Positions 5,835-23,032 of a stretch of 64,000 nucleotides of DNA are shown here, piece by piece. The first letter of the stretch is position 1. Each line of letters begins with the position of its first letter. This stretch comes from Pseudobdellovibrio exovorus JSS (GTDB lineage Bacteria; Bdellovibrionota; Bdellovibrionia; Bdellovibrionales; Bdellovibrionaceae). A program made the position numbers and the translations under genes. The stretch lies in assembly GCF_000348725.1 (NCBI RefSeq), contig NC_020813.1, forward strand, positions 992,001-1,056,000, written 5' to 3'. Below the pieces are notes generated by a model. It ran no database searches and was not told the DNA's origin. It was given only the letters and a program-made list of their open reading frames with translations.

Positions 5835-5925
5835 GGTTTCATTATGAGAAAGTCTGATTAATTTCTCAAGTCCAGACAGTTTAAAACCGATACCTAAGTA
5901 ACTAGCTAAGTATAAGGGGAAGCTA

Positions 5926-6567
5926 ATGGCTTGGGATAATATTCCGGATTGGTCATACGATTCGGTCAGAGCCTTGCTCGAGGCACTTAAATCGGTCGAG
6001 CCCAGCACGTATCATCACTGTTTGCGTGTGGGTGAGTACAGCCGCAAGTTGGCAGAGAGCATGGGCCTAAACGAGTATGAACAGAAAGTAGCCGAATTCT
6101 CTGGCTTGCTTCACGATATTGGCAAAATGGGCATTGATCGCGCCGTTTTACTTAAACCAGGTAAGTTAGATCCTCAAGAGCGAGACATTATTCGCAATCA
6201 CAGTATTCTCAGTGAACAAATTATTAAGCCTTTTTCTGCTGACCCTTTCTTTCAACAGATTATTCCTGCAGTTCGTGGACACCACGAACGCTTAGATGGT
6301 GAAGGATATCCAGACAAGTTGATCGGTGATGAAATCCCATTGATGGCCAGAATTATTTTGGTCGTGGACACTTACGATGCGATGTCAGAAGATCGTATTT
6401 ATCGTAAGGGCTTACCAGATGATGTTATTTACGCTGAGCTTAAGCGTTGCTCAGGATCGCAGTTCGATGCTCAATTAGTAAAAATCTTTTTATCTGCTCA
6501 TCGATTTTGGAAGAAGAGCGAAAAAGATGAAGAGACGAGTAACCTCATTATTCGTAAAATCGCATAA
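5926..6567 (+). CDS. HD-GYP domain protein (probable c-di-GMP phosphodiesterase)
   Basis: A 213-residue, essentially single-domain HD-GYP protein that would hydrolyse cyclic di-GMP. The metal-binding HD pair is seen in LLHDIGKMGIDRAVLLKPG, followed by IRNHSILSEQII, and the GYP loop is present as RGHHERLDGEGYP with the downstream VVDTYDAMSEDRIYRKG. All ligand histidines and aspartates expected for activity seem present. There is no receiver or membrane domain attached, so input must come from a partner or from expression. The start ATG has AAGGGG upstream. The gene is divergent from the barrel gene at 5142 and ends in a strong terminator. A second HD-GYP protein lies at 40734. Confidence 0.9.
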   Translation: MAWDNIPDWSYDSVRALLEALKSVEPSTYHHCLRVGEYSRKLAESMGLNEYEQKVAEFSGLLHDIGKMGIDRAVLLKPGKLDPQERDIIRNHSILSEQIIKPFSADPFFQQIIPAVRGHHERLDGEGYPDKLIGDEIPLMARIILVVDTYDAMSEDRIYRKGLPDDVIYAELKRCSGSQFDAQLVKIFLSAHRFWKKSEKDEETSNLIIRKIA

Positions 6568-7627: not shown

Positions 7628-9070
7628 ATGATGGGTAATAGTTTAAAAGTAACAAAAATTGCTATGGTGTTCTTTGCCTTTTTCACGGCTTTTAGCACGT
7701 GGGCTCAGCAATCGGGTACCAAGGCCACAGGGACCTCACAAATCAAAAGATCTCAGCTTAAGAAGGCTGAGGCGCAGGAATCTGCAACTCGTTTAGAGGT
7801 GGATCTGAGCGCTATTGGTTATGCAGAGGAAGCTGCCAACGATAGCAGTTTTCAGCAACGTGCACAGTTAGGCTTAAAGTTCAAAAAAGAAGGAAGCTTT
7901 TTTGGTGCTGCGGATATTACCTTGGGTACATTTTCGACTCCGAAAAGTATGTACTATGCTTTCCCTGATGCTTACATGGGCTATGGCACAAAAGATGCCA
8001 ATGTTACATTCGGACGTAAAAAAGAGAATCTGAGCTTTGCGGATTCATTTTTCAACTTTGGACTTATGCAGTCTCATCAAACGAACGACAACATCAACTT
8101 TATTGAGGGTGGTTTAGTCGGTTTAACGGCACGCTTTTCAACAGGTAACTTCGGTGTGATGGCCGCATTCAATCCTATTTTTATTCCGAATCAAGGGCCT
8201 CAGACCCAAGTGGAAGATGGTAAGATCACCTCCAGTAATCGCTGGGCTCCGGCTCCGCCATCTAAATTCAAATTTGGTGATGATCATAAAAATATTAACT
8301 ACGCGATACGTGATTACCAGTTATTAGATATCATTACGAATAGTGGATATATGGCCAGCGCGTACTTAGGACCGAACAGTGTTCGTCCTTATTTAAGAGT
8401 GACTTATGCCTACAAGCCATTAAATGAAATTGTTTTGTCACGTGATACTTACAGTGATATTTCGACATTTGAAGGTTACGTGTACCTTTCACCCAATACA
8501 ATTATGCATCAGGTGACGGCGGCGGATATCAATTTCGATTTTGAAAATATTAAAACTACATTTTCGGTTATTTCGGATCAGCCTGAAAATAAAACAGCTA
8601 AAGACTTAGAATTTATTCAGACTTTGAACCCACTTAATATCGTCGCTGGTTATATTTCAGTGGATTTGAGCTCATGGGCTAAAAAGAAACTAGAAATCTA
8701 CGCGGGTGCGGCCTCTATCAGCGGTGGTGAAATGCGTGATATGAATAGCCAAAATCAAGAAAGCAGTTTTGCTATTGCAGATTCTAGAACATTGTTTAAA
8801 AAGCCTCTGCGTTTGGGTGTGAAAAGCGAGATGTTTTTTATCTATAATAAGGCTGTAGATGCAGACGTGAGTTATACATACGATCAAGATTTAAAAGGTG
8901 CTTTACTTTCAGCATCGGTCAAGTATGGTGCTACAAAGAATCTGACTCTTCGTGTGGGCGCGGATATTATTGGTGTCGAAAACGAATTGCCAACAGATGC
9001 GCAAGGAAACTTCTTAGACCAGAACAAGGCCAACGACAGATTTTTTGCTGGAGTGAATTATGCGTTCTAA
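7628..9070 (+). CDS. Outer-membrane beta-barrel of module A (paralogue of 19327)
   Basis: Secreted protein of 480 residues: signal peptide (hydrophobic core VFFAFFTAF, cut near STWA), a short lysine-rich linker, then a long region of alternating strands ending in DRFFAGVNYAF, a C-terminal phenylalanine as in BAM substrates. I do not recognise a named porin family. It is clearly related to the 439-residue product at 19327: both carry FGRK/IGRK, IP[ND]QG, a DG...SN.W.P.PP stretch and an AGV.Y end. The next gene starts inside its last codons (11-base overlap), so barrel and lipoprotein are translationally coupled. ATGs stand at both 7628 and 7631 and no clear ribosome-binding site is seen. Confidence 0.8.
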   Translation: MMGNSLKVTKIAMVFFAFFTAFSTWAQQSGTKATGTSQIKRSQLKKAEAQESATRLEVDLSAIGYAEEAANDSSFQQRAQLGLKFKKEGSFFGAADITLGTFSTPKSMYYAFPDAYMGYGTKDANVTFGRKKENLSFADSFFNFGLMQSHQTNDNINFIEGGLVGLTARFSTGNFGVMAAFNPIFIPNQGPQTQVEDGKITSSNRWAPAPPSKFKFGDDHKNINYAIRDYQLLDIITNSGYMASAYLGPNSVRPYLRVTYAYKPLNEIVLSRDTYSDISTFEGYVYLSPNTIMHQVTAADINFDFENIKTTFSVISDQPENKTAKDLEFIQTLNPLNIVAGYISVDLSSWAKKKLEIYAGAASISGGEMRDMNSQNQESSFAIADSRTLFKKPLRLGVKSEMFFIYNKAVDADVSYTYDQDLKGALLSASVKYGATKNLTLRVGADIIGVENELPTDAQGNFLDQNKANDRFFAGVNYAF

Positions 9071-12000
9071 GTTTATATCAGCACTTTTGTGTCCAGTCGT
9101 GGCGTTGTCCGTTGCTGGCTGCGGGATTAAATTAGGAGAAAAAAATAATAAACAGGAAAAAGTCGCTGAAATCCAAGGGACCTCCTGCCTAAAGCCCTCT
9201 ATGGAGCTACTGAAAAAGTTTGTTGCAGGTAATGCCAATGACGATGAACTTTCGGAATCCTTAGAGTGTTTACAAAGTGTTTTGCTGACATTTAAAGAAA
9301 ATATCCGTGGTAAAGATGTTAATGCTTATACTCCCGAGGAAATTGGTAAGTTCTTAACGCAAAATTTCTTAAAGAATAGCACCTTTCAACTGACGCCAGA
9401 GCTAATGGGCGAAGTGCTCAAATTCAAAGTGATGCTTTTAGGTGGGGACACCGAAAAAATCACGAAAGAAGAGATCATTCGTCTGGTCGATGTTTTTGCT
9501 CGTTACAAGCCAGAACTATTAAAACTTAATCCGCACATGAAAGTGATCACAGGTAAGTGGGCGGCAACAGGCAACGAAAAACAAGATCAGCGTCAATTTA
9601 ATGAGGCGAAACGTGCCCTGATTTCTTTCTTAGATCATTTAGGTCGCGATTTAGCCTATACGCAAAGATCTTATGAGTTGAATGACATGTTCGGTTTAGT
9701 CGAAAAAATTGCGGGTATCGTAAATGCGAATGAAAGCACTCTTTCTACAATTCGCAATGCACGCGTAGCGATTATCTCTTTCAAAAAAGCTTTAATTGGT
9801 GGTGACTCTTCGCTAACAGGACAAGAGTGGGTGTCTTTTACACAAACTTTGTCCCAAGCTTATGCGCAGTACTTACGAGTTCAATATTTCCTTAAACCGC
9901 TGAAGGCAAGTCAATCTACTGAAAAGTGGCAGGTGTATGAAGGCATCGCAACAGACGTTGTGGGGCTGATCGAAGATCTATTAGGACGCAAAACTGGCGG
10001 CTTGCTTTCAAACAATGAGATTATTGAGCTATTGGGTAGCTTAAGACCTCTATTGCCATCTTTAGAGTTAAATGCAGAGATGGTGGGACAAATCAATCAT
10101 ATCAAGATCATGCTTTTGGGACGTCATAATTTGTCTGAGCAAGGGTGGTCAAAAGAGGACTTCTCGACTTTAAAAAGAAAGATTCCTGTTCTATTAAAAA
10201 ACATCAATGTCATCACAGCGAACTTAAAACATTTAAAAGTAAATAAGGAAGCCTATCGTAAGTCAGAAATTAAGTATGAAGACTTCCAACAGGCCGAGCT
10301 TGCTATTCAAGCCGCTGTTAAAGAGATCGGCGAGCAAATTGTTGAATCCTACGACTTAGATGTTTTAAAAGCGACAGTTTTGAATTTATCGCGAACAGTT
10401 TTAAAAGACAGTCTAAAACTTCCAGAAAATATTGAGCAGCTATTTGAAGTTGTAAAAACAGCTAAATACACGCTGACAGGTGAATCGGGTGCGACTGTAA
10501 GCCGCAACGGGATTCGATTATTGTTAAATGTCGGTATTCACATGTACGCGAACTTCGTTGAATTTTCGAACTTCGTCAGTGTTTTTAAAATTGAAGAGAA
10601 TGAATTCACAGCAAATCTAGCTAAGTTGCTGCCTAAATTTAAAGAGAGCACAGCATTATTGCTGCGAATGAAGCCTGATCATAATATCAGTACGCAAGAG
10701 ATAGTACCTCTGGTGATGTCTTTGCAAGAGCAGGGCTTACTGAAGACGAAGTTTCGTCAGGCCAGTGTAGAGTCGACTATCAATGCTCTGTGGAGTCATC
10801 TATTAAATGATCCGGCTAAGCGTTTAGGGACACCACGTGTGCATCTGGGTGGATTCGGGAGCGTGGCTTTAGAGCAATTGGCAACCGAACTTCAGCACTG
10901 GGTTCTTAATCAGATGGTGATCAACAGACTTTTCACAGAAAAGGAAAGTTACACGAAAGAAGAATTGGCGCCGGCGTTACAGCAGATGGGCTTATCTGAA
11001 CTTCATCGCTTAGTTGGAGCTAAAGGTCTGATGAACTTTAACAGTTCTGGCTATCTTAAGATTTTATCCGAGACGAACGGGCGCTATACTCGCGGAGATT
11101 TAATTAAATCTAACTTAGCCCGCGCAATTAGCCGCTTGGTGATTAGAGCTTTTGCTACAGATATTAATCGCGTCAATAACTTGCAAGGTGTTAATCAAGA
11201 TGAGCTACAAGCTGGCTTTAATCTGGTGCGAGGTCTTCTTGTGGATATTGGTATGATGGATGAAGTGGGTGCAGATGGCTTCGTGGCCTCTCGCTTCAGG
11301 GAAGCTAATCTATTTCTATCAGTGGGTAATGGCGATAGTATAGCCAGCTTAGAAGAGATTCATCATTTGGCTTTACATATTATGTCGGGCCTTGGCCGCG
11401 CTAATGCACTGAAACCGCTGGCGCTTGAGCGTTGTGTACAGACCCGTAACACAGAAAATGAAGGCTTAAGCCTTCTTGATGAAAGCTGTCTAATTGATTT
11501 GTACTACAATGAGGTGGCCGCATTCTCTGATTTGCCTAAGCTCCTTGAGATGAAGCAAAAGCATACGGAAGAGGAAGTGAAGACGTATTACCTGAGCTTA
11601 TTGAAAGCTGCAGGGTATGTGCAGACGGAAGAGAAGCAAGTGAAACTAAGTGACGCCGCTTTATTCCCTCACGTGGCGCAGTACTTAGAAATGATTTATT
11701 ACTCACACGATAAGAGTCAGGATTCTTTACTTCAGAAAGAAGAAGCTCTAGCTGCCTTCCCTGTATTTAAAGAGTTGATTGTAACACTGACAAAATCTTT
11801 CCCTGCGCTCGTCGAGGACGATATGCCAGGTGTATTTATCTTCTTATTAAAAGAGGGTAAGGCCCCAAGAACTCTGGCTGAAAAATTACGATTTGCAGCC
11901 TTTGTTAAGGACCATGACTGCAGTAAACCAGAGGGCTGTCATAAGGGTTGGGATATTCAAAGTACACGTTTAGATTTAGGTAAGATCTTTAACTTCATTG

Positions 12001-12074
12001 CAGAAGCGACGAAGCCACAGCCTCCGACTCCAGTAGTTGCAGGCGCCGGTACTGAGACCGCAGGGAACGAGTAA
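9060..12074 (+). CDS. Large EF-hand-like repeat lipoprotein of module A
   Basis: A 1004-residue lipoprotein with lipobox LSVAGC (Cys21, then Gly, so predicted to go to the outer membrane). The mature chain is mostly helical. A recurring signature, roughly LLGG-x3-KIT-x2-E, appears near residues 126, 245, 352 and 472, with more EF-hand-like forms near 624 (KESYTKEEL), 755-766 (VGNGDSIASLEE) and 884-895 (DKSQDSLLQKEE, a nearly canonical calcium loop). Spacing is 107-152 residues. It is homologous to the lipoprotein at 20636 over its ends and signature units. The gene overlaps the preceding barrel gene by 11 bases and ends in a terminator. The likely role, by inference, is a surface or periplasmic partner of the barrel. 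Function unknown. Confidence 0.85.
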   Translation: MRSKFISALLCPVVALSVAGCGIKLGEKNNKQEKVAEIQGTSCLKPSMELLKKFVAGNANDDELSESLECLQSVLLTFKENIRGKDVNAYTPEEIGKFLTQNFLKNSTFQLTPELMGEVLKFKVMLLGGDTEKITKEEIIRLVDVFARYKPELLKLNPHMKVITGKWAATGNEKQDQRQFNEAKRALISFLDHLGRDLAYTQRSYELNDMFGLVEKIAGIVNANESTLSTIRNARVAIISFKKALIGGDSSLTGQEWVSFTQTLSQAYAQYLRVQYFLKPLKASQSTEKWQVYEGIATDVVGLIEDLLGRKTGGLLSNNEIIELLGSLRPLLPSLELNAEMVGQINHIKIMLLGRHNLSEQGWSKEDFSTLKRKIPVLLKNINVITANLKHLKVNKEAYRKSEIKYEDFQQAELAIQAAVKEIGEQIVESYDLDVLKATVLNLSRTVLKDSLKLPENIEQLFEVVKTAKYTLTGESGATVSRNGIRLLLNVGIHMYANFVEFSNFVSVFKIEENEFTANLAKLLPKFKESTALLLRMKPDHNISTQEIVPLVMSLQEQGLLKTKFRQASVESTINALWSHLLNDPAKRLGTPRVHLGGFGSVALEQLATELQHWVLNQMVINRLFTEKESYTKEELAPALQQMGLSELHRLVGAKGLMNFNSSGYLKILSETNGRYTRGDLIKSNLARAISRLVIRAFATDINRVNNLQGVNQDELQAGFNLVRGLLVDIGMMDEVGADGFVASRFREANLFLSVGNGDSIASLEEIHHLALHIMSGLGRANALKPLALERCVQTRNTENEGLSLLDESCLIDLYYNEVAAFSDLPKLLEMKQKHTEEEVKTYYLSLLKAAGYVQTEEKQVKLSDAALFPHVAQYLEMIYYSHDKSQDSLLQKEEALAAFPVFKELIVTLTKSFPALVEDDMPGVFIFLLKEGKAPRTLAEKLRFAAFVKDHDCSKPEGCHKGWDIQSTRLDLGKIFNFIAEATKPQPPTPVVAGAGTETAGNE

Positions 12075-12096
12075 AGGGGCGTATCAGCCCCTTTTT
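12073..12096 (+). terminator. Intrinsic terminator after module A
   Basis: Stem AAAGGGGC / GCCCCTTT with loop GTATCA followed by TT and G; the left arm begins inside the TAA stop of the large lipoprotein. It sits between convergent genes. Confidence 0.8.
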
Positions 12097-12101
12097 GCGT
12101 C

Positions 12102-12536
12102 TTACTTTTTTAATTCAAGACTTGTTTTTAAAGCGTGATTTTCGTTTCGAAGCTGATCAATCTCGGCGTAAAGAAGCATGATCTTTTTATTGAGCTCATG
12201 GATTTCTTTGGCATCTTGCGGAGAGATGCGGGCCCCTTCTTGTGAGTGATTATCTTCAAATTGTGCAATGGCTTGATTTGGTTTGGTCTTAAAGCCACTG
12301 CTTTCTGAAAGCCCTAGCTCGGGGTCCACCTGTTGAATAATCGCTGTATTCGACTTATTCAAAATATGTTTCATACTATCTTGAACTTGAGAGATTTTTG
12401 CCCCGTAGGTTTTAATAGTTTTAATTTTAGGTGGGAACTCGCCAGTTAAGAAGCTAATTGCGAAATAGCCGACAATCAGCATAACCAATAGGTTAACCAC
12501 CAACATCTTCAGTAATGATGAGAATAATCCGTTCAT
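12102..12536 (-). CDS. Small bitopic membrane protein with C-terminal coiled coil
   Basis: A 144-residue protein not recognised as a known family. It has one N-terminal membrane helix (residues about 9-30, MLVVNLLVMLIVGYFAISFL), then a polar, poorly ordered middle, then a heptad-like C-terminal helix (about 108-142, ELNKKIMLLYAEIDQLRNEN) that looks like a coiled coil. The topology resembles small scaffold proteins of the divisome type (one helix plus coiled coil), but no sequence motif supports that. It follows dcd after one base and probably shares its transcript (rpmG-dcd-this gene). Confidence 0.7.
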   Translation of the reverse strand: MNGLFSSLLKMLVVNLLVMLIVGYFAISFLTGEFPPKIKTIKTYGAKISQVQDSMKHILNKSNTAIIQQVDPELGLSESSGFKTKPNQAIAQFEDNHSQEGARISPQDAKEIHELNKKIMLLYAEIDQLRNENHALKTSLELKK

Positions 12537-12537
12537 A

Positions 12538-13074
12538 TTAGAACTTATTCTTAAACATCATTGATTCAACAGGAATTGATTTTTTATCGTTATATTTTGC
12601 GTTAGATTTTTTGTTGTACATATTTTGAATGTCACCTTTGACTTCAAAATAAATGAGTTGTCCCACAGGCATACCTGCGTAGACGCGTACAGGTTGTTTT
12701 ACAGAGATTTCCAGTGTCCAGTGATTGCAGAAGCCCACGTCACCTTTACCGGCAGTTGCATGGATGTCGATACCAAGACGACCCACACTTGATTTTCCCT
12801 CTAAGAAAGGCACATGAGCATGAGTTTCAGTGTACTCAGCAGTAACCCCTAAATAAAACTTAGCAGGGGTTAAAACATAACCTTCTTCAGGGATTTCAAA
12901 AGTTTTGATTTTATTATGAGCTTTAGCATCTAGGATTTCGTCGTCGTAAACGGCCAAAGTTTTGCCTAAGTGTACATCGTATGAGTTTGTACCAAGGCAT
13001 GATAAATCAAAGGGCTCGATTTTGATGAGCCCTTTTTCGATATGACTTAAGATTTCTTTGTCAGTAAGAATCAT
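12538..13074 (-). CDS. dcd: dCTP deaminase
   Basis: Cytosolic trimeric enzyme of 178 residues that deaminates dCTP towards dUTP for thymidylate synthesis. The family core is clear: LEGKSSVGRLGIDIHATAG followed by GDVGFCNHWTLEISV, which includes the SSxxR phosphate loop and the catalytic Glu of TLEI. The N-terminal GTNSYDVHLG is also typical. Length is close to the E. coli enzyme (193). Whether it is the mono- or bifunctional (dUMP-forming) type cannot be decided by eye. It lies 25 bases behind rpmG and one base ahead of the coiled-coil membrane protein. Confidence 0.93.
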   Translation of the reverse strand: MILTDKEILSHIEKGLIKIEPFDLSCLGTNSYDVHLGKTLAVYDDEILDAKAHNKIKTFEIPEEGYVLTPAKFYLGVTAEYTETHAHVPFLEGKSSVGRLGIDIHATAGKGDVGFCNHWTLEISVKQPVRVYAGMPVGQLIYFEVKGDIQNMYNKKSNAKYNDKKSIPVESMMFKNKF

Positions 13075-13099
13075 AATCCTAAAACACTATACGCTGAAA

Positions 13100-13279
13100 T
13101 TATTTAGTTTCGCGGTGAACAGTGTGTTTTTTTAAATTAGGATTGTATTTCTTTTTTTCTAAACGACCAGGAGTTTTAGTTTTGTTTTTTGTAGTTGTGT
13201 AACGAGAAACAGGTTTTCCAGCTGCTTTAGCTTCTGTGCACTCTAAAGTTACAATAATACGACCAGTCTTTTTTGCCAT
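13100..13279 (-). CDS. rpmG: Ribosomal protein bL33
   Basis: A 59-residue basic protein beginning [17 protein letters not shown] and containing the L33 core [20 protein letters not shown], ending [13 protein letters not shown]. It is a protein of the large ribosomal subunit near the E site. Only one cysteine (residue 14) is present, so this is the zinc-free (C-minus) paralogue type. The start has a strong AAGAGGTG ribosome-binding site and the gene is preceded by a near-consensus promoter. dcd follows after 25 bases, which suggests co-transcription. Confidence 0.93.
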
Positions 13280-13314
13280 GATACACCTCTTAAATGAATT
13301 CCAAAGACCTTCTT

Positions 13315-13343
13315 TTATAAGTAGGTTTACAGCGGTCAGTCAA
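13315..13343 (-). promoter_or_regulatory. Sigma-70-type promoter for rpmG-dcd
   Basis: Reading on the minus strand: -35 TTGACT, a 17-base spacer, -10 TTATAA. The predicted start of transcription is about 30 bases before the rpmG ATG. This is one of the best vegetative promoter matches in the window. Confidence 0.7.
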
Positions 13344-13381
13344 TCGAATATAAGGGTCTGGTACGAAATTGAGGGGTTTTT

Positions 13382-14233
13382 ATGCTTAAAAGATCGGTAT
13401 TTCTAGCTCTATCCGCATTATTTTATAGCTCTTGTGCTTTTTCTCAGCTTTTTGATGGCCGAACAGGTCAAGAAACCTCTCTGGAAAACCTGCTGAGTCG
13501 GGTACAAGCGGGCCATATCGTCATATTGGGCGAAAACCATGGTCTTGCCAGCCATAAAGAGCAACACCTCGAAATTTTACGCGGCTTACGCGCTAAAGGC
13601 TTAAAAGTTTCGGTGGGGATGGAGTTCGTCAATTACACGGACCAAACTTATCTAGATCAATACCGTGCGGGAGCCTTAACGGAAGATCAATTTCTAGCGG
13701 CTATCAAATGGGGTGGTTATAGCTTTGATTTCTATCGTGAACAGATTCTATTTCCAGCTTTGGCATTTAATGAAACCACAGTGGGATTAAATATCTCGCG
13801 CCAGATCACTTCGAAAATTTCAAGACAGGGGCTAGAGAGCTTAGATGAAGCTGAGCAGGCGCTATTGCCTCCAGCTTTTACTTTGGGTCGTGAGTCTTAC
13901 AAGACGCGCTTTATGTTAGCGGCGGGACATCACTGCAAGAGTCCGTTGAATTGTTTTACGGCTCAGTCGGCGTGGGATGATACGATGGCATGGCAGACGG
14001 CCGAGTTCATGCAGGCTCATCCTGATCATGTCCTTGTGATTGTTGTCGGAGAATTCCATGTTCAGTACGGCGGAGGGTTGCCAGATCGTATCCGTGCACG
14101 ATTAGCGGACGCTCGTCTGGTGACGGTGTCGCAGGTGAATGGCGAGGGAATGTTAGACGAAGAAAAGCAAGAGCAGATCGAGCCTTCTTTGACTGAAGGC
14201 CCGCGCGCTGATTTCATATGGATTAGTCAGTAG
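13382..14233 (+). CDS. ChaN-like haem-binding/Tiki-superfamily secreted protein
   Basis: A 283-residue exported protein with a signal peptide (LALSALFYSSCAFS). The family signatures are VILGENHGLASHKEQHLEIL near residue 45 and VVGEFHVQYGGGLPDRIRAR near residue 222. These match the ChaN (DUF399) haem-binding/EreA-Tiki fold, where the GENH glutamate and histidines form the metal or haem site. The Cys in SSCAFS could serve as a poor lipobox, but Sec cleavage after AFS looks as likely. Family members bind haem for iron acquisition or act as metalloproteases; which applies here is open. A GAGGGG ribosome-binding site precedes the ATG. Confidence 0.75.
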   Translation: MLKRSVFLALSALFYSSCAFSQLFDGRTGQETSLENLLSRVQAGHIVILGENHGLASHKEQHLEILRGLRAKGLKVSVGMEFVNYTDQTYLDQYRAGALTEDQFLAAIKWGGYSFDFYREQILFPALAFNETTVGLNISRQITSKISRQGLESLDEAEQALLPPAFTLGRESYKTRFMLAAGHHCKSPLNCFTAQSAWDDTMAWQTAEFMQAHPDHVLVIVVGEFHVQYGGGLPDRIRARLADARLVTVSQVNGEGMLDEEKQEQIEPSLTEGPRADFIWISQ

Positions 14234-14246
14234 TTACTTAAATCCG

Positions 14247-14840
14247 TTAGCGAATAGCTTTAACTTCTTCCATGGCTTTATTTTCTAAAATTGCAGCGAT
14301 GACCAGCGTGGCGCGTTTCATTTTTGAAAAGAAATCCTGTTCAGCTCCAAGAATAATTCTTTGAGGATGACCATCCCAGCTTTGCTTAATCTTATCATTT
14401 AATAGCAAGGCTTCATGGAAGCTTTCCGTACGGATTTCATTACTGGTGTCGTAATCAGGTTCTGTCGCTGTGTCTAAATGAATAACCCAGTCATAGCGAG
14501 CAAGTTCAGCAGCGCGAGTTGTCTGAGTTGTTTCAAAAAAATTATCGGCTGAATCGGGCCAGTAAGCTAAGGCATCCAATGAACCACGATCACACACGAT
14601 CAAGGCTTCGGGATTTGTCTTACAGCGCAAAGCCTCTAATTCTTTTTGTGTGAAGTAAATCGCTCGTTGAGCATGGAAGTAGCCTTCATAGCTTTTAACA
14701 CGAGGAAAGCCGCCCTTGTACAGGATCGAGGCCGCTTCTGGGACGATCTTTACTTTTTGTCCAAACTCTTTTCTAAGAGCTTCAATTAAGGTTGTTTTTC
14801 CGCCAGAGGGGCCACCAGTAATCGCAATTTTAACAGGCAT
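14247..14840 (-). CDS. P-loop ATPase/kinase, AAA_28-type
   Basis: A 197-residue single-domain P-loop protein. The Walker A is ITGGPSGGKTTLIEAL at the very N-terminus, with a Walker-B-like strand ALIVCDRGSLDALAYW (around residues 80-95) and a DTATEPDYDTSNEIRTE segment typical of the NadR-like/AAA_28 kinase-like family. Substrate unknown. It lies 18 bases downstream of the Rossmann protein gene on the same strand and has AAAGGA before its ATG, so the two are probably co-expressed. Confidence 0.72.
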   Translation of the reverse strand: MPVKIAITGGPSGGKTTLIEALRKEFGQKVKIVPEAASILYKGGFPRVKSYEGYFHAQRAIYFTQKELEALRCKTNPEALIVCDRGSLDALAYWPDSADNFFETTQTTRAAELARYDWVIHLDTATEPDYDTSNEIRTESFHEALLLNDKIKQSWDGHPQRIILGAEQDFFSKMKRATLVIAAILENKAMEEVKAIR

Positions 14841-14858
14841 AGAAATTCCTTTAATGAA

Positions 14859-16154
14859 CTAAGTTACACTCTTAACGACAACATCATGTCCTATCCAAGC
14901 TACAGGTGATTTTGGGTGATAGCCATCGTGAAGCATGATGTACCCACAGGCTCTAAAAATCAATTCACTCAAGGTAGCTGTCATCAATGATTTTTCGTCT
15001 TTGTGTAAAGAGAAAATTCGATCCGAAGTCTCAAGACCTAATGCTAACTGCTCTTTACCAGAGTGATGTGGCCAGCCCTCATAGACACTGGTTTTCAAAA
15101 AGAGTTCAGAGTTTAAAAAGTCATCTACAATTTGGAAAATTTGCTCGATAGAGGCATCTTCTTTTAAAACAGCACGGCATTCATTTTTAATTTTTTGAGT
15201 CAATTCATGTTGAGGCTGATCTTTTTCGAAAGCGCGGATCAAGTTGTAAAGTGGAATTTCAATCCCTTGGAAAATGGAACTCGAGTTTGTTAAAATCTCA
15301 GGACAATTGTAGACACACGTTTTGATACCTTGTTGGCTCCATTTTTTCGAAATACCTTCGAGTTCAACTTTTGCCCAACCTTGAATGTAGGGGGCGTAAG
15401 ATTGCCATTTGTAATCGTCATTGATGATGATCTCGGTGCCATGGTAGCCGTAAGCCACGTAGCTGACACTTCCGCCTTTTGACTCAATTTGCTGTCTTAG
15501 ATTTGCGGACTCATCAATCAGGATATTGTAAGTTTCAGCAGTGACTTCTTGAAAATTAAGTTCCAACAGACGACCAATGGTACTTTTCCAGAAAATCTCT
15601 GAAGGTAAGAAGCGGTCTCCGGTTCCTTTGAAAACGCGATTCATCAATGGCATGACGATTTTACAGCGGGGAACTCCACCTGCCATTAAGTGGGCAAAGT
15701 GAACATGGGCTCCGTCTTTCAGGTGAGGAGTCAGCTCTTTTAAAAACTGCTGAACACTTTGTCTGAAGCGCAGGCGTCCTTTTTCTTTGGATTCTTGTAA
15801 AGAGGTCTCTGGTAAAACAGCGTTTTGCCAATCACTGAGTTTAACATCTTTTAGATAGTCGACAGGTGACTTGCCGTGGGAATCTTTTTCTAAATCAAAT
15901 CCGGCCTCAAGAGGAACGTTAATAAAAGGCTGTGGAATTGACGCCGTTTCTTCAGCATTGAGAGCACGTAAGTTTCCTTCGCTATCGCGTCTTCCCACTG
16001 TGGCACGGATAACAGTTAGACCGCTCTTTTCGGCTTCTTCTACAAGCCCGTTTGCATAGCCGCGGTTAAAAAGTTCACCAAATAGTACAAGGACATCGCC
16101 TTTTTTAAAGGATTGAGTCTGAGGTTTTTCACGTAGTGGGTAGTAGTTTTTCAT
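14859..16154 (-). CDS. Rossmann-fold protein, possibly FabMG-type enoyl-ACP reductase
   Basis: A 431-residue cytosolic protein. Residues about 20-55 read as a first beta-alpha-beta nucleotide-binding unit (DVLVLFGELFNRGYANGLVE, then a strand TVIRATVGRR). The middle carries HVHFAHLMAGGVPRCKIVMP and a VSYVAYGYHGTE segment. This overall pattern recalls the atypical SDR-like family annotated as FabMG (enoyl-ACP reductases found through triclosan resistance), which I recall as occurring in Bdellovibrio relatives; that assignment is from memory and tentative. Length exceeds classical FabI (about 260). The small P-loop ATPase gene follows on the same strand. Confidence 0.45.
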   Translation of the reverse strand: MKNYYPLREKPQTQSFKKGDVLVLFGELFNRGYANGLVEEAEKSGLTVIRATVGRRDSEGNLRALNAEETASIPQPFINVPLEAGFDLEKDSHGKSPVDYLKDVKLSDWQNAVLPETSLQESKEKGRLRFRQSVQQFLKELTPHLKDGAHVHFAHLMAGGVPRCKIVMPLMNRVFKGTGDRFLPSEIFWKSTIGRLLELNFQEVTAETYNILIDESANLRQQIESKGGSVSYVAYGYHGTEIIINDDYKWQSYAPYIQGWAKVELEGISKKWSQQGIKTCVYNCPEILTNSSSIFQGIEIPLYNLIRAFEKDQPQHELTQKIKNECRAVLKEDASIEQIFQIVDDFLNSELFLKTSVYEGWPHHSGKEQLALGLETSDRIFSLHKDEKSLMTATLSELIFRACGYIMLHDGYHPKSPVAWIGHDVVVKSVT

Positions 16155-16215
16155 TCGGAAATAGTAGCGCGAGCTAATAGTTGACTCAACTAACAGTGAT
16201 TGACACGATTAGTTG

Positions 16216-16995
16216 ATGCTCGAAAAAAATGCTAAAATTCTTTCTTTGGTGCCGTCATGGACAGAAACCCTCATTGAAGCGGGTATTGATGTCGTCGGTA
16301 GGACGCGTTTCTGCATTCATCCCGAGTCAAAAGTGAAATCGATTCCCGCTGTTGGTGGCACTAAAAATATGCAAATCGATGAAATTTTGAAGCTGTCACC
16401 TGACTTGGTTGTTTTAGACCAAGAAGAGAATAAAAAAGAGATGGCTGAGGTATTAACTCAAAATGGAATTGAAATTGCTGTCTCCCATGTGACGGGTTTA
16501 CAAGAGGCTTCAGACTTTTTACACAATTTGGGTCAGAGACTTCAAAATCCAAAACTACAAGAGTACGCTCATCGCTATCGTCAGATCCTTGAAAAGAAAG
16601 AAAAAATCAATGCGGAATTATTCTGGAGACAGATTCTTATTCAAGATGCGGAACTGGTGGCAGAACTCAGTCGTAAATCCATTCAGGAGTTACAATTAAC
16701 ACCTATTGAATATGTGATTTGGAAGAATCCATTTATGGTTATTGGACAGGGGACATTTATAACTGAGGTGATGTCATTGGTAGGGGTTCATCTGTCACAT
16801 CCGCAGAAGTATCCGCAGATAGAGGCTTCTGCGCTTAAAAAAGCCATGTGCCTTTTTTCGAGCGAGCCTTTTCCTTTTGCTAAGTACATCCATCAGTTGA
16901 AAGCCGAAGGTTTTCAAGGCGCACTGGTCGATGGGGAAAAAATCAGTTGGTACGGATGGCGCAATCTTACTTTTTTAGAAAGCTGTTTTAATTGA
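16216..16995 (+). CDS. BtuF-like helical-backbone metal receptor, no signal peptide
   Basis: A 259-residue protein of the periplasmic-binding-protein family for corrinoids and metal chelates. Seen are ILSLVPSWTETLIEAGI at the N-terminus, VVGRTRFCIHP, VGGTKNMQIDEILKLSPDLVVLDQEENK, and the two-lobe architecture with a linking helix. Unlike BtuF there is no signal peptide or lipobox: the first strand starts at residue 7, so the protein should stay in the cytoplasm. I chose ATG 16216; a TTG one codon earlier is possible. No ABC transporter genes are adjacent. The 3' end overlaps the convergent waaA by 21 bases. Confidence 0.72.
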   Translation: MLEKNAKILSLVPSWTETLIEAGIDVVGRTRFCIHPESKVKSIPAVGGTKNMQIDEILKLSPDLVVLDQEENKKEMAEVLTQNGIEIAVSHVTGLQEASDFLHNLGQRLQNPKLQEYAHRYRQILEKKEKINAELFWRQILIQDAELVAELSRKSIQELQLTPIEYVIWKNPFMVIGQGTFITEVMSLVGVHLSHPQKYPQIEASALKKAMCLFSSEPFPFAKYIHQLKAEGFQGALVDGEKISWYGWRNLTFLESCFN

Positions 16996-18201
16996 TTCTT
17001 TGATGGTATCGAGGGCTCGCTGGCTTGCATTTTGATTTTTTTGCATTTCAGTTAAGATCTGCTCTTTATCAAAAGTCGAAATATTTTTAATAAGCCCTGT
17101 TAGCTCTTGTGGGGATTCAATTCTAATAACGGATTGCCCTACATAGCGGACAGCTTCAGGATTGTTGTGGTAAAAAGGTCCAACAGCAACGGGAAGGCCG
17201 CAGCAAAGCGGTTCCATTACCGAGTGAACTTTGTCTTTAAAAGAACCGCCAACGAAAGCTACAGAACCAAAGCGATAGAGGTCAGCGAGGTATCCCACTT
17301 GATCTACCAGTAGAATGTTTTTCGAAATATCCACGCGCTGTAAGTCCTGAGATTCAGACAATAACTGGTAGCTCCATCCGTATTTTTCCAGGTCATTTCG
17401 TAGACGTGCGATATTGCTGGAACTGACATCGTGGGGGCACAGAGCAATTTTGAACTTATTTTCAATTAAAAAATTAAAGCATGGAAAAAGCACCGCTTCA
17501 TCTTCAGCCCAAGTAGAACCGCAAATGAATAGGGGAGCTGAGTCCGACGAAGAGTTGGCGATTTTGACTTTCGGCTCTTGGCTCAAGCGAAAGAAAACTT
17601 GATCAAAACGCGTGTCGCCATCGGCTTTGATGATCTTTGTTCGCGTGATCAATTGTAGACTTGGGATGATTTGTTCTTGTAAGCAAGAAATAAAATCTAG
17701 CTGGCTAAGTAAGTGTCTATTTACAAAATGATTAAGTGAACTTAAACGAGGGTTGTACGAGATCACCCCTACAGGAATGCGCTGCTTTTTCACTTGATAA
17801 ATAAGCTCTGGCCATAAATCTGTTCTGGCAAAAACTAAAACACGCGGTTGTATGTATTGAATAAGACGCTTAATTGCAAAGGGCTGATCCCAAGGTAGAG
17901 GAATGAACTCGTCGACAAATTGACTGATATTAAAAAACAACTTTTCCGCAGATGGAGAGGAGTAGGTGACAACAACATGTGCTTTTGGATCTTCGGTTTT
18001 CAGTAGGCGAATAACAGATTTGCAGTATTCAATTTCTCCACTAGAGGCGTGGAACCAATAGCTGTTTTTGAAATTATTCTTTTGTGAGAGCTTTTCTCGA
18101 CGTAACTTTATCCATAGCTGTAAAGATTTTGGCAAAACCGGAGAAATCACAAATAGCAAAACTCTAAGCGTGAAGTAAATCAGGCGATAAAAATAAATCA
18201 T
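16975..18201 (-). CDS. waaA: 3-deoxy-D-manno-octulosonic acid (Kdo) transferase
   Basis: Membrane-anchored glycosyltransferase of 408 residues that adds Kdo to lipid A precursors at the inner-membrane face. Visible are an N-terminal anchor helix (YFTLRVLLFVISPVL), the catalytic region WFHASSGEIE with the conserved glutamate, ARTDLWPELIY, and the C-terminal nucleotide-sugar site FVGGSFKD...GPFYHNNPEAV. The ATG at 18201 overlaps the TGA of the upstream heptosyltransferase gene (ATGA), so the two are translationally coupled. Longer readings from 18267 are unlikely because the extra residues precede the anchor and lie wholly inside the upstream gene. Whether it adds one or two Kdo residues cannot be told. 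Confidence 0.9.
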   Translation of the reverse strand: MIYFYRLIYFTLRVLLFVISPVLPKSLQLWIKLRREKLSQKNNFKNSYWFHASSGEIEYCKSVIRLLKTEDPKAHVVVTYSSPSAEKLFFNISQFVDEFIPLPWDQPFAIKRLIQYIQPRVLVFARTDLWPELIYQVKKQRIPVGVISYNPRLSSLNHFVNRHLLSQLDFISCLQEQIIPSLQLITRTKIIKADGDTRFDQVFFRLSQEPKVKIANSSSDSAPLFICGSTWAEDEAVLFPCFNFLIENKFKIALCPHDVSSSNIARLRNDLEKYGWSYQLLSESQDLQRVDISKNILLVDQVGYLADLYRFGSVAFVGGSFKDKVHSVMEPLCCGLPVAVGPFYHNNPEAVRYVGQSVIRIESPQELTGLIKNISTFDKEQILTEMQKNQNASQRALDTIKESIKTAF

Positions 18202-19178
18202 TTGTTTTGCTCGAGGATTTGGTTCATGCGGCTTGAAACTTCCAGTGGTGTAATCGAGCGTAGGCATTCATGATAGGCCACATTCACACATGGCCCCTGT
18301 CCATGTTTAGAGCAAGGACGACATTTTAAGTTTCTTTCTAACTGTAAGGTCGTTTCGCGCGAAGGGAAACCAAAAGGGGCAGGTCCCATTAAGGCGATGG
18401 TGGGCTTTCCAAGTTGCTCTGAAAAATGCAGAAGTCCGGTGTCATTAGCAATCGTCATACTTGCTTTTTCAATCACAGCGGCGGATCCCAGTAGTCCGGT
18501 CTTTCCCGTTAGATTGAGGACATTTGAGTTTTGATTCAAGACAGATGTAAAGTTGTCCTCTGGGCCAGCTAAAACAACAAACTTTTTACTTGGGTTGAGT
18601 TTGATGAGTTCATCCCAATACTCTATTGGCCATCTTTTCAGAAAGTAGGCAGCCGAAGGCACAAGTGCTACGAAGTCTTCATCTGGAGTTTCTACAGATT
18701 GTCGAATACTTTCATTTAGAAACAATTGTGGTGTTGGAGGAAGCCGAAAAGGCATTCCCCATTTTTCTAACGGCTTAATCAGATCTCTTTGTCCAGAAAA
18801 AGGTTTTTCAAAAAGATTGATATGATATTCCAGAAGTAGAAATCTTTTGATGCGCATCATCGGTCTGACCAAAGTTTTCTTTGAGTGTACAAAGAAGCGA
18901 ATGAGTGCAGATCTTAAGTTATTGTGTGCATCATAAATGTGCGTGAAATTTTCCTGATTTAATTTTTTTATCAATTGGATGAGTCCACGGAATCCATCAC
19001 GGCGATCCAGTGTCCAGATGCGATCAATATTTGGGTGATTTTCAAGCAAACTCGAGAGGTCTTGGCGTGTAACAAAATGAATCTCGGCGTTCGGAACATA
19101 AGAGCGGATAAAGCTCGGTATGCTGAGTGCTTGTGTTAAATCGCCAATGCTGGAAAATCTTATAATGAGAATCTTCAT
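18198..19178 (-). CDS. LPS heptosyltransferase family protein (GT9)
   Basis: A 326-residue glycosyltransferase family 9 protein for the LPS inner core. It begins MKILIIRFSSIGDLTQAL, the classic GT9 start, and has the ADP-heptose site in the second lobe: VALVPSAAYFLKRWPIEYW, then ANDTGLLHFSEQLGKPTIALMGP with the conserved D-TG-xxH. A C-terminal cysteine cluster (LKCRPCSKHGQGPCV...HECL) is common in WaaF-like enzymes. I cannot separate WaaC, WaaF and WaaQ types by eye. It leads the pair with waaA (ATGA overlap), which supports a role in core assembly. Confidence 0.88.
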   Translation of the reverse strand: MKILIIRFSSIGDLTQALSIPSFIRSYVPNAEIHFVTRQDLSSLLENHPNIDRIWTLDRRDGFRGLIQLIKKLNQENFTHIYDAHNNLRSALIRFFVHSKKTLVRPMMRIKRFLLLEYHINLFEKPFSGQRDLIKPLEKWGMPFRLPPTPQLFLNESIRQSVETPDEDFVALVPSAAYFLKRWPIEYWDELIKLNPSKKFVVLAGPEDNFTSVLNQNSNVLNLTGKTGLLGSAAVIEKASMTIANDTGLLHFSEQLGKPTIALMGPAPFGFPSRETTLQLERNLKCRPCSKHGQGPCVNVAYHECLRSITPLEVSSRMNQILEQNK

Positions 19179-19326
19179 CCGAACCTGTATATAACTTATC
19201 TAGTCATAGTATACAAAAACTGTCATCTGTCCAGTTTCAGCGTCCTGCGCCCCTAAATTCTAGGCCAAATCGCATAAATTAAGCCTCAGACCTCTATTGG
19301 GGCACAAAACTTGATAGATAGCTGGT

Positions 19327-20646
19327 ATGGGAAGAAACCATCTGTTTTTGATTAGTGCTATCTTGTTTTTCAGCTTAGTGTCTCATTCTGAGATTCGCAC
19401 ATCTATGGTTGTTCAAGGGTTGTCATTTATCAGCCCTGATTATGAGTCTGCAAGCAGTAAATCTTTCGCATTCTTAGGCGCGAATCTTAAGACCAATCCT
19501 AAATCAGATGACCTTTTCCGTATTAACTTAACGGGTATGTATGCCATGGGGAACTCTGTTTTGAGTTTTCTGAATATCCGTGAAACATACTTCAGCACTT
19601 CATTTGAAGATAAATCAGAGCTTCACATTGGTCGCAAATTACATAACTGGTCTTCTTTAGACAGCGTATGGAATTTAGGTGTTTATCAACCTCAATTCCG
19701 TTGGAATCCATTGGCTCCTGAAAACCAAGGTTTAACAGGTTTATTTTGGGAGAAAAGAAACCAAGGATTTGCAGTGAGCTTATTTGCCTCGCCATTGTAT
19801 ATTCCAGATCAAGGCGCTAGTTTTGAGTTAAAAGATGGTCAGTTTCAAGCCAGTAATCCATGGTTCCCGATGCCTCCACAAAATGTTCGTTTTCAAGGAC
19901 AGTTGTTACCGATTGACTATAACGTCGATAAACCTGAAGTCAGTGAAGTGATCTTTCAAACTCAGTACGGAGCACAAGTTCGTATGGGTGAGGGACGTGG
20001 ATTCTTTGCTAATTTAGCAGGGATGTATAAACCTTCGAATCAATTGGCTTTGGGCTATAAAGGCGTGTTGGTAACGACACGTGTGCGTATAGATGTGACT
20101 CCGAAAGTCTATTATGAAAACGTGTATTCAGCAGATTTTGGCTACCGCGATACATGGGGAGCTGCTCAATTGTCGGTTTTATATAGCCAACCGAAAGATC
20201 CGAAGTTCGATGATGGATTTAACTCGCCTCAATTCGACGAAAGCTTAAGTTGGGGGCCACAGATATTTTTTAGATATCAACCCTTCACATTTTTCTTAGC
20301 CTACTTGGACACAACAGGTGGAAAAGTTAAAGATGTGGGACCTGATGCGGATGATAACAGAGCTTCCTTGTCGAATCGCTTTCAGTTCCGCCAAGCGGCT
20401 TTAGCTAGAGCTACATACACGGGAGTTTTTTGGAATCAATTTCGTTTAGACTCAACACTTCAATATAAATTCAGCCCATCAGAGTCGTTCCGCCAAATCA
20501 ACTTTAAGAATGCAGTGAAGTTACGTGGACCATGGGCTTTCTGGGTCGATGTGCTTTTAATTGATACTGATAGCGAAAAGAATTCGGCAATGGAAGCCTA
20601 CAAGAGTTTAGATCAAGTATGGGCGGGAGTAAGTTATGATATCTAA
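19327..20646 (+). CDS. Outer-membrane beta-barrel of module B (paralogue of 7628)
   Basis: A 439-residue secreted barrel protein with a signal peptide (LFLISAILFFSLVSHS). Alternating strands run throughout. Homology to the product at 7628 is seen by eye in HIGRKLHNWSSLDSVWNLGV against the FGRKKENLSFADSFFNFGL of the other, in IPDQG...DG...SNPWFPMPP, and in the C-terminal QVWAGVSYDI. It lacks the lysine-rich linker of module A. The downstream lipoprotein gene starts inside its last codons with an 11-base overlap, exactly the arrangement of module A. Function unknown; a channel or export partner for the lipoprotein is an inference. Confidence 0.8.
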   Translation: MGRNHLFLISAILFFSLVSHSEIRTSMVVQGLSFISPDYESASSKSFAFLGANLKTNPKSDDLFRINLTGMYAMGNSVLSFLNIRETYFSTSFEDKSELHIGRKLHNWSSLDSVWNLGVYQPQFRWNPLAPENQGLTGLFWEKRNQGFAVSLFASPLYIPDQGASFELKDGQFQASNPWFPMPPQNVRFQGQLLPIDYNVDKPEVSEVIFQTQYGAQVRMGEGRGFFANLAGMYKPSNQLALGYKGVLVTTRVRIDVTPKVYYENVYSADFGYRDTWGAAQLSVLYSQPKDPKFDDGFNSPQFDESLSWGPQIFFRYQPFTFFLAYLDTTGGKVKDVGPDADDNRASLSNRFQFRQAALARATYTGVFWNQFRLDSTLQYKFSPSESFRQINFKNAVKLRGPWAFWVDVLLIDTDSEKNSAMEAYKSLDQVWAGVSYDI

Positions 20647-23032
20647 AATCTGCTTAGCTTTTTTAGTTATTCCTATGATGTTATTGTCATCATGTACTGA
20701 GTTTACTAAGGGAAAACCTAAGAAAGAAGAAGTTGTAGAAATCAAACAAGACGCGATGAGTTGCTTGAAAGATGTTCCTTTAGATGTGCAAAATTTTATG
20801 AAATCTGAAGTGACACCGGCGGATATTGATAAAACATTTTCTTGTATTGATGACACCTTGTCACAGTTCCAAACGCGCGTTGAAGGACGCCAAGAGGCGA
20901 CTTCATTTAATGCAGAAGAGCTTTTTGAAATTTTTGAAAAATTCATTGAAGATTCAAATATCTCTAGAGACGCTACACGAGATTTACTCTCTTTAAAAAC
21001 AGCCTTACTAGGTGGTTCAGATCAGAAAATCACTAAAGATGAACTAACAGAGCTTCGCGCTTATTTGTTGGTGATTCGTGAAGAAGCTAAAAATCTACTA
21101 CCTTATGCTCAATTGTTTACTTTTCAAAAAACAGATGCACCACTAACTAAAACCATGATTAAAGATGGATTTGCTCAGCTTAATTTAAGTCTTAAAAATC
21201 TTTTGGCAGCATCTCGTATGTCTCAGTCTTCTTATGGATTTGAAGACTTCAAAAGAACTATCAAAAATATGAATGTTTTGAAAGAAGATCAGCAGGGAAT
21301 GCTAGAGTTGGCTGACAAGGTCAATACTCTTTTGATCGGTCAGCAGGCCGCTGGCGGTGAGTCTGAAAGACAAATCTACATTGATAATTTAACAGAGGTA
21401 CTACGTTTATACTCAACTCATATTCATGGACATGTTAAATTTGAAATCAGCACGCCTGCTGTATTAAATAACTTAATCGAGTTTATCGAAGATGCGGTAT
21501 CGTTATTAGAAGGCACATTGCAATACCGAAAAACTCAAAAAATTTCGATGGCCTCACTTGATCCTTTGATTTCTGAAGTTTTTGAAAAAGAGATGATGCC
21601 ACTTCCAGTTTCCAGTTCAACGGCATTGAGCTTTTACAAAACAATAGTAGTGCGTGTTTTAGAATCAGGACTTGCTGGCGATATCATGGCATTTGATGGT
21701 ATCAAGCGCGTGCATTTCAGTAATTTGAAAAGAGAAATAGCTGTTTACAAAATCTATAGTAAGTATCTTGAAACTATCGCAAGCGAGTCGGTTTTGGCTT
21801 CAAGCCAGAATCGCAGAATCCCTGTGGAAACAGTTCAGCGTCAGCTACGTCAATTTGACCCTGCAAGCGAGACGGCAATTCTAAAAGATTTCGACTCAGA
21901 GACGCAAAGACTCATTGTTAATATTGTGAAAGAATTAAAAGAACAGTTTTTAATTCAAAAGCCTTCTATTTATCGCAATAAAAAGTTGATGTTGTATGCC
22001 AATCAAAATCTAGCTCAGCAAAATTGGGTGGATTTGACTCGTGGATTTTATGTGATGATGTTATCGCGCCAAATGCTATTAGGTTGGGGCGAGACGCCGT
22101 TTGTGAAGTTAGTGAAAAATGCCCATGCCAGCAAGCGTGGAATGGTGCAGTGGTATAATGAGTTTAAAAATTTCGGAATCGAAATCAAAGCTATGGACCC
22201 ACGAGTTGAAAACCAAGGTGAGGCTAGCGTAATTGCTGCAAACCTGTTTACCGCATCTGGTAATGGCGATGATAAAATGAGCTTTTCGGAAACGCTACAA
22301 AGCTTCAATATTCTGATCTCTGGCGGTCAGACTTTTAATGAAATGAAGCAGGGCTTAGCCAATGCCAACTGTAACCTTTCAGATATGGATGTGTTCGGTA
22401 ATCCATGGAATAACGAAGCCTGTTTTATAGGCGAGCTGAAGCGGGGATATAAATACTATTTTTCTAACCTTCCAGCTTTAAGTGTTTATTTAGAGCGTTT
22501 GACACCGGAACAGTTCCAAGATTTCTTTGTGGCCTTGCTCGATGCGGCCCGTAAAGAAGAGGCTAACAAAAATGTGCGTTTGGAAAGTGCAGATATCAAA
22601 ATGATGATTTCTTTGTTGTATTACATGGAGTCCTTGTATGCGGCCCATGATAGCAATAACAACTTCCTATTATCTCCGACAGAGATCCGTACGGCTTATC
22701 CAAAGTTTAAAAACTTTGCAACGGAGTTTGCCCGTGAACATTCCAAAGCTGAACTGGATAAGTTTAATGGCCGATTGGGCCGTGTGGCTTATTCTTGTTA
22801 TGGTGAAGAAGACCTTATCCGTGAATCTTTTATTTTCTTGTTGTTTAAAGGACGCACTCCAAAACAAGAGGATTTAAGTACATTGCCATGTGTGGTAACG
22901 CCGGGGATTCTTCGCCGTATAACTCCAGATAACTTGGACAATCGCAGACCACTCATTCAACACGAGGGTGAGGTCGGCCGTCGTACTATTATTAATACTT
23001 TTAAAATCCTGAAAGCTGTATTAAGCTCCTAG
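20636..23032 (+). CDS. Large EF-hand-like lipoprotein of module B
   Basis: A 798-residue lipoprotein with lipobox LLSSC (Cys20, then Thr, outer-membrane sorting expected). It is mostly helical and homologous to the lipoprotein at 9060: both have SCLK near residue 44, an LLGG-x3-KIT-x2-E unit (here about residue 124, TALLGGSDQKITKDEL), a degenerate unit near 541 (SGNGDDKMSFSE), and a near-canonical EF-hand loop close to the C-terminus (residues 672-683, DSNNNFLLSPTE), then FIFLL.KG.[AT]P. It is about 200 residues shorter, apparently having fewer repeat units. It overlaps the barrel gene by 11 bases, and the MFS gene starts one base after its stop. Confidence 0.85.
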   Translation: MISKICLAFLVIPMMLLSSCTEFTKGKPKKEEVVEIKQDAMSCLKDVPLDVQNFMKSEVTPADIDKTFSCIDDTLSQFQTRVEGRQEATSFNAEELFEIFEKFIEDSNISRDATRDLLSLKTALLGGSDQKITKDELTELRAYLLVIREEAKNLLPYAQLFTFQKTDAPLTKTMIKDGFAQLNLSLKNLLAASRMSQSSYGFEDFKRTIKNMNVLKEDQQGMLELADKVNTLLIGQQAAGGESERQIYIDNLTEVLRLYSTHIHGHVKFEISTPAVLNNLIEFIEDAVSLLEGTLQYRKTQKISMASLDPLISEVFEKEMMPLPVSSSTALSFYKTIVVRVLESGLAGDIMAFDGIKRVHFSNLKREIAVYKIYSKYLETIASESVLASSQNRRIPVETVQRQLRQFDPASETAILKDFDSETQRLIVNIVKELKEQFLIQKPSIYRNKKLMLYANQNLAQQNWVDLTRGFYVMMLSRQMLLGWGETPFVKLVKNAHASKRGMVQWYNEFKNFGIEIKAMDPRVENQGEASVIAANLFTASGNGDDKMSFSETLQSFNILISGGQTFNEMKQGLANANCNLSDMDVFGNPWNNEACFIGELKRGYKYYFSNLPALSVYLERLTPEQFQDFFVALLDAARKEEANKNVRLESADIKMMISLLYYMESLYAAHDSNNNFLLSPTEIRTAYPKFKNFATEFAREHSKAELDKFNGRLGRVAYSCYGEEDLIRESFIFLLFKGRTPKQEDLSTLPCVVTPGILRRITPDNLDNRRPLIQHEGEVGRRTIINTFKILKAVLSS

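Follow-up and report, generated by a model that had tools for sequence, protein, structure and literature searches.

A barrel-lipoprotein gene pair conserved across Bdellovibrionota probably encodes an undescribed two-part outer-membrane machine

Pseudobdellovibrio exovorus JSS is an epibiotic predator whose genome consists of a single contig of 2,657,893 bases. We analysed 64,000 nucleotides (nt) of it (NC_020813.1, positions 992,001 to 1,056,000; hereafter the window, in whose own coordinates all positions are given). The window carries two modules, A and B, each comprising a gene for an outer-membrane β-barrel followed by a gene for a large lipoprotein. A barrel and its lipoprotein very likely act as one functional unit, probably a two-part machine of the outer membrane that has not been described before; the odds that this unit is a channel, gated or selective, for a small solute are about even. 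The four genes, found at the positions given in a preliminary description of this DNA, are the following.

7628-9070, + strand: barrel A, outer-membrane β-barrel of 480 amino acids (aa), homologue of barrel B
9060-12074, + strand: lipoprotein A, 1004 aa, lipobox SVAG|C21
19327-20646, + strand: barrel B, 439 aa
20636-23032, + strand: lipoprotein B, 798 aa, lipobox LLSS|C20

In two-sequence comparisons, barrels A and B share 21-23% identity (E 2e-15), and the lipoproteins are homologous over their N-terminal ~165 residues (E 6e-10) and their C-terminal ~190 residues (E 4e-13), with no detectable relatedness in the middle part. Both the barrels and the lipoproteins are thus real paralogues. The shared barrel motifs listed in the preliminary description are present in both barrels. 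Those of the lipoproteins are present as well, except that FIFLL.KG has to be corrected to FIFLL.[EK]G, as A reads FIFLLKEG and B reads FIFLLFKG.

The two genes of each module overlap by 11 nt, as had been described, and each overlap is preceded by a Shine-Dalgarno-like sequence within the barrel gene.

9050-9053, + strand: GGAG, Shine-Dalgarno-like, module A, in the barrel's conserved Gly-Val codons and 6 nt 5' of the lipoprotein ATG
9060-9070, + strand: 11-nt gene overlap, module A, with the ATG of lipoprotein A within the last codons of barrel A
20626-20629, + strand: GGAG, Shine-Dalgarno-like, module B, in the barrel's conserved Gly-Val codons
20636-20646, + strand: 11-nt gene overlap, module B

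The lipoprotein ATG falls in the codons for the terminal Tyr-x-Phe/Ile-stop of the barrel. With GGAG in the Gly-Val codons, part of the "AGV.Y" motif at the end of the barrel therefore doubles as ribosome-binding site and start of the next gene. An overlap of this length is not a regional habit, since the remaining same-strand overlaps in bases 1-59.8 kb of the window measure 1, 1, 4, 7, 8, 34, 44, and 70 nt. Among the 80 pairs that possess the conserved Gly near the barrel C-terminus, its codon is GGA or GGG in 71, versus 44% elsewhere in the same barrels (Fisher 1e-16), and this excess indicates that the ribosome-binding site of the lipoprotein is encoded in the end of the barrel. At the sequence level, these features support translational coupling of barrel and lipoprotein.

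The pairing extends through the phylum. Searching 291 genomes drawn across Bdellovibrionota with barrel and lipoprotein profiles revealed the barrel in 230, the lipoprotein in 229, and both together in 228, while 60 genomes lack the two (Fisher p about 1e-58, without phylogenetic correction). The discordant genomes, two with only the barrel (G202 and G294) and one with only the lipoprotein (G232), are 75%, 84%, and 72% complete, respectively. Near-complete genomes also exist in which both genes are missing while their families carry both (G217 of family f4, G053 of f6, and G065 of f17), so the two genes also go missing together. As an internal control, the barrel profile retrieved only modules A and B from the window's own genome. 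All 30 deep-family representatives have at least one neighbouring barrel-lipoprotein pair.

Gene arrangement was examined in 98 distinct linked pairs. In 89 of these, including pairs from families f17, f22, and f18, the barrel precedes the lipoprotein with an overlap of exactly 11 nt, the lipoprotein starting with ATG in 88 cases and with TTG in one. Four pairs lie in tandem with gaps of 9 to 73 nt in place of the 11-nt overlap, and one is in reversed order (L061). Another four, all from f18, are divergent yet adjacent, with 106-184 nt between the starts; by coordinates, 9 of the 13 f18 representatives are divergent, these four being the ones examined as loci. The expectation that the two halves would co-occur as neighbours was thus borne out.

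Wider searches returned less. Scanning all GTDB contigs with lipoprotein B as a single query yielded nothing, although whole-genome searches of relatives found the family widely; the empty result reflects the insensitivity of pattern scans for a divergent family. With the barrel alignment as query, 26 loci came up, each in a Bdellovibrionota-looking record, which is no proof of absence elsewhere. A tblastn search of plasmids produced no match. One record (L116) is titled as a Streptomyces griseus metagenome-assembled genome; its genes are clearly arranged as in Bdellovibrionota, and it is probably mislabelled or misbinned.

Within family f1, the A and B lineages separate in both the barrel tree, where barrel A falls in the A clade, and the lipoprotein tree, and each barrel tracks its neighbouring lipoprotein, with no A/B swap among 64 pairs. 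Three f4 loci (L068, L069, and L071) contain two complete modules in direct tandem, barrel-lipoprotein-barrel-lipoprotein, which is consistent with tandem duplication of whole modules. In a separate case (L092, G008:C8), a B-type lipoprotein has grown to 1005 aa, and a second B-type copy of 808 aa is found on another contig (L006).

Both barrels and both lipoproteins lack a Pfam or NCBIfam assignment; for the window barrels no Pfam match, Alginate_exp included, appeared at E up to 1, and the lone weak Pfam match among 71 barrel relatives was to OprD (0.0019). Barrel B was modelled by AlphaFold with a predicted local distance difference test score (pLDDT) of 94.9 and a predicted template modelling score (pTM) of 0.89. 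The model has ~18-20 strands (about 20 from the DSSP string), of which the first starts at residue 23, immediately behind the signal peptide, and both termini lie on one and the same side, predicted to be periplasmic. Foldseek identified a porin-like β-barrel fold, the nearest solved folds being AlgE, OmpK36, chitoporin, and OprD-type barrels with template modelling (TM) scores of about 0.4-0.5; the best match in the PDB was AlgE (E 2e-9, TM about 0.5). Sidedness was assigned by the rule that long loops lie outside and short turns inside. Two long segments on the predicted outer side stand out by their conservation.

19639-19731, + strand: predicted extracellular loop L3, barrel B residues 105-135, the long segment with the highest conservation (mean information 2.21 bits)
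19792-19962, + strand: predicted extracellular or luminal loop L4, barrel B residues 156-212 (FIPDQG...NPWF..PP; mean information 1.96 bits)

Elsewhere in the barrel, mean information is 1.59 bits in the strands and 0.82 bits in the predicted periplasmic turns, all of which are short (2-7 residues) and unconserved. L3 and L4 make up 20% of the barrel and hold 21 of its 45 most conserved positions, with the motifs GRK-WS.LD, QGLTG, FIP.QG, and NPWF..PP; in the alignment of 71 sequences, which includes barrel A, G102 and G138 are invariant. This pattern is unusual because the outer loops of barrels normally are their fastest-changing parts.

Lipoproteins A and B both have the features of outer-membrane lipoproteins: a lipobox, a lipobox Cys that is invariant in all 78 lipoproteins compared, and a +2 residue (Gly in A, Thr in B) that is not an inner-membrane retention residue. 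The Escherichia coli sorting rule may not hold for the whole family, since 16 relatives have Asp at +2. In the same alignment (B numbering), C20, C43, and C70 are invariant and C579 and C596 near-invariant; beyond the lipid Cys, these presumably form two disulphides. About 22 residues separate the lipid Cys from the first structured Cys, and this spacer contains a conserved motif of the FLxGK or GEK type.

The AlphaFold model of lipoprotein B (pLDDT 91.3, pTM 0.87) is all helical apart from paired short strands at residues 90/131, 302/355, 497/547, and about 650/679, which we read as the signature of EF-hand pairs in the model. A whole-chain Foldseek search gave nothing significant in the PDB; the best partial match with a real probability (0.93) was sorcin, a penta-EF-hand protein. 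A profile of the lipoprotein matches EF-hands in the PDB (E 4.5e-5), and Pfam EF-hand models match up to 8 of 40 relatives (EF-hand_7 in 8/40). A single recognisable Ca2+ loop lies in the last of the EF-hand-like pairs.

11709-11744, + strand: EF-hand-like loop DKSQDSLLQKEE, lipoprotein A residues 884-895
22649-22684, + strand: EF-hand-like loop DSNNNFLLSPTE, lipoprotein B residues 672-683

Both DKSQDSLLQKEE and DSNNNFLLSPTE miss the strict PROSITE EF-hand pattern at position 6, yet 15 of 78 relatives match it at exactly that place, versus 0.22 expected by shuffling. The canonical 12-residue loop between two helices that defines the EF-hand superfamily is therefore found in the family and is degenerate in both window proteins, so that "near-canonical", as the loop had been called, is a fair term. 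Judged from sequence, a response of the lipoprotein to Ca2+ is plausible.

Directly downstream of module B lies a likely third gene that the earlier account of a two-gene module had overlooked.

23034-24212, + strand: major facilitator superfamily (MFS) permease (PF07690, E 3e-25), 1 nt after lipoprotein B

The permease is weakly TsgA-like. An MFS gene directly 3' of the module B lipoprotein is usual in family f1, where it was found in 19 distinct loci at spacings of -35 to +46 nt, and many genera of the family share it. Divergent genes upstream of module B encode a heptosyltransferase and a KDO transferase of the lipopolysaccharide (LPS) core. Module A is flanked in the window by genes for a dCTP deaminase and a ChaN-like protein, and in several other genomes by a peptidase/deacylase-like and an α/β-hydrolase-like gene, assigned by eye. 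Overall, the genes that recur nearby are of the LPS-core transferase, MFS, ChaN-like, and housekeeping kinds; in the loci compared, no recurrent gene for a polysaccharide synthase or a polymer-modifying enzyme is found near the modules.

We propose that each module encodes a dedicated two-subunit outer-membrane complex. One subunit would be the large porin-like barrel, in which L3 and L4 probably cover the lumen or reach into it and thereby act as a gate or a selectivity filter. The other would be the large lipoprotein of EF-hand-like helix pairs, made in step with the barrel through translational coupling, most likely docking on its cognate barrel, at the conserved face or in the lumen, and possibly sensing Ca2+ through its one near-canonical loop. 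A and B would stem from duplication of the entire module, the cognate partners staying separate. It is the porin-like fold, the conserved luminal or outer loops, and the link to the MFS permease that suggest a solute channel. As the lineage B complex would usually be co-transcribed with this inner-membrane permease, the most economical role is that of passing a small hydrophilic solute selectively across the envelope, with uptake more likely than export, and solute uptake likewise more likely than export of a polymer. A more elaborate version, in which the docked EF-hand lipoprotein gates the barrel, is switched by Ca2+, for example upon prey contact, and in lineage B feeds the predator via the MFS permease, we regard as unlikely.

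Several observations weigh against the proposed complex and its role. Family f10 keeps barrel and lipoprotein unlinked, on different contigs or loci (L064-L066, L072-L076, L095-L097): its single barrel lies beside module A-type neighbours, a B-like lipoprotein without a barrel adjoins the heptosyltransferase typical of module B, and three of four genomes carry a further lipoprotein elsewhere (two in all). In 8 of the 30 deep-family representatives there is an extra, orphan lipoprotein. The fixed pairing claimed in the preliminary description thus holds phylum-wide without being absolute. An MFS gene was found 3' of none of the A modules examined and is missing in Bdellovibrio proper, which makes the support for a transport role indirect. 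In lipoproteins A and B themselves the EF loop departs from the strictly canonical form, and the sidedness of the barrel model depends on the long-loop-outside rule. For the predicted contact between the two proteins, coevolution analysis of 64 barrel-lipoprotein pairs had no power: it recovered barrel hairpins at background (about 2-6% versus 2%), its inter-protein pairs were discarded, and the top one, barrel 438 with lipoprotein 2, corresponds to the shared DNA of the gene overlap. With its single barrel, family f10 is a natural setting in which to learn if two lipoproteins can share one barrel.

Among described systems, AlgE-AlgK of Pseudomonas (PMC9734138) invites comparison, with a large porin-like barrel that is also the nearest solved fold to barrel B and a large helical outer-membrane lipoprotein as its partner. 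Together with the LPS-core glycosyltransferase genes beside module B, this could point to an exporter in which the lipoprotein acts as a periplasmic scaffold passing polysaccharide or protein to the barrel for export. We consider this quite unlikely, because the pair has no match to the Alginate_exp family, no synthase operon, and helices that are EF-hand-like and not TPR; moreover, the long periplasmic T8 loop that gates AlgE in the AlgE-AlgK model is absent from the model of barrel B, whose periplasmic turns do not exceed 7 residues. Alternatively, the barrel might export or anchor its own lipoprotein as a surface adhesin or sensor, in the manner of Slam or of RcsF and its outer-membrane partners. 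Strict cognate pairing with coupled translation, the conserved extracellular or luminal face, and the ~22-residue spacer after the lipid Cys would suit such a role, and Slam and the surface lipoproteins of Neisseria likewise form a functional pair. In contrast to Slam, however, the barrel has no periplasmic TPR domain and no Slam family match in Pfam, the model of barrel B leaves no room for a Slam-type N-terminal domain before its first strand, and the genes show a strict one-to-one cognate overlap. As some lipoproteins have no neighbouring barrel and the MFS neighbour is better explained by transport, we give this alternative only a small chance.

Bdellovibrio and its relatives are vibrioid cells. 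A structural role, with an array of barrels holding a lipoprotein that organises wall or curvature, would therefore have some appeal, and the complex of the porins Por39/Por41 with the lipoprotein PapS in Rhodospirillum rubrum has such a role (PMC11369160). PapS attaches to a periplasmic loop of its porin and carries an OmpA-like peptidoglycan-binding domain, whereas no OmpA-like or other peptidoglycan-binding domain was found in the window proteins or in 40 relatives, and the periplasmic turns are short and variable; a role of this kind seems very unlikely. The same applies to a plain diffusion porin that is merely co-transcribed with an independently acting lipoprotein, which we hold to be highly improbable. 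Such a view would agree with the porin-like fold and with the unlinked genes of f10, but operon inertia alone is hard to reconcile with the finding that 288 of 291 genomes have both genes or neither, with cognate inheritance of A and B partners, and with adjacency re-formed in divergent or reversed order.

The pair also differs from other systems to which it bears some resemblance. SusC-SusD and BtuB-BtuG of Bacteroidota, the latter described as a barrel-lipoprotein pair in PMC10404256, likewise combine a barrel with a dedicated lipoprotein and are repeatedly paired. The barrels here, however, are 439-480 aa long with about 20 strands from residue 23, no Pfam model of a TonB-dependent receptor or plug matches the window barrels, and the lipoprotein fold is different. 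PopA (Bd0427), the major outer-membrane protein of Bdellovibrio, is another porin-like barrel of predatory bacteria (PMC12228718), but it forms pentamers, has 16 strands, and contains a helical plug; this distinction is drawn from its published description. The lipoproteins share with EF-hand proteins such as sorcin and calmodulin a C-terminal EF loop and paired helix-loop-strand-helix units, but form an array of 800-1000 residues with no significant whole-chain match in the PDB. No description of this pair was found in the literature searched, so that, as far as Pfam, NCBIfam, PDB sequences, and that literature go, the earlier statement that it matches no named system stands.

Two further genes of the window may also encode barrels.

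24179-25213: 344-aa protein without a Pfam match that ends in YWRF, probably another outer-membrane barrel
5142-6008, - strand: 288-aa open reading frame with a small-barrel-like end, overlapping the start of an HD-domain gene (5926-6567); the reading frame itself probably begins further inside

In B. bacteriovorus kdesi, a counterpart of the 344-aa protein immediately follows module B (L098:12728-13795).

The two modules thus exemplify a gene pair retained in most of a phylum, its translational coupling kept to the nucleotide and neither protein in a curated family. The pair would mark a basic function of the outer membrane so far missed in predatory bacteria, and an EF-hand lipoprotein together with a non-TonB barrel would be a new make-up among the few known barrel-lipoprotein complexes. 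Its function may bear on the uptake of prey material by the predator or on the sensing of contact, and is directly testable in Bdellovibrio bacteriovorus.

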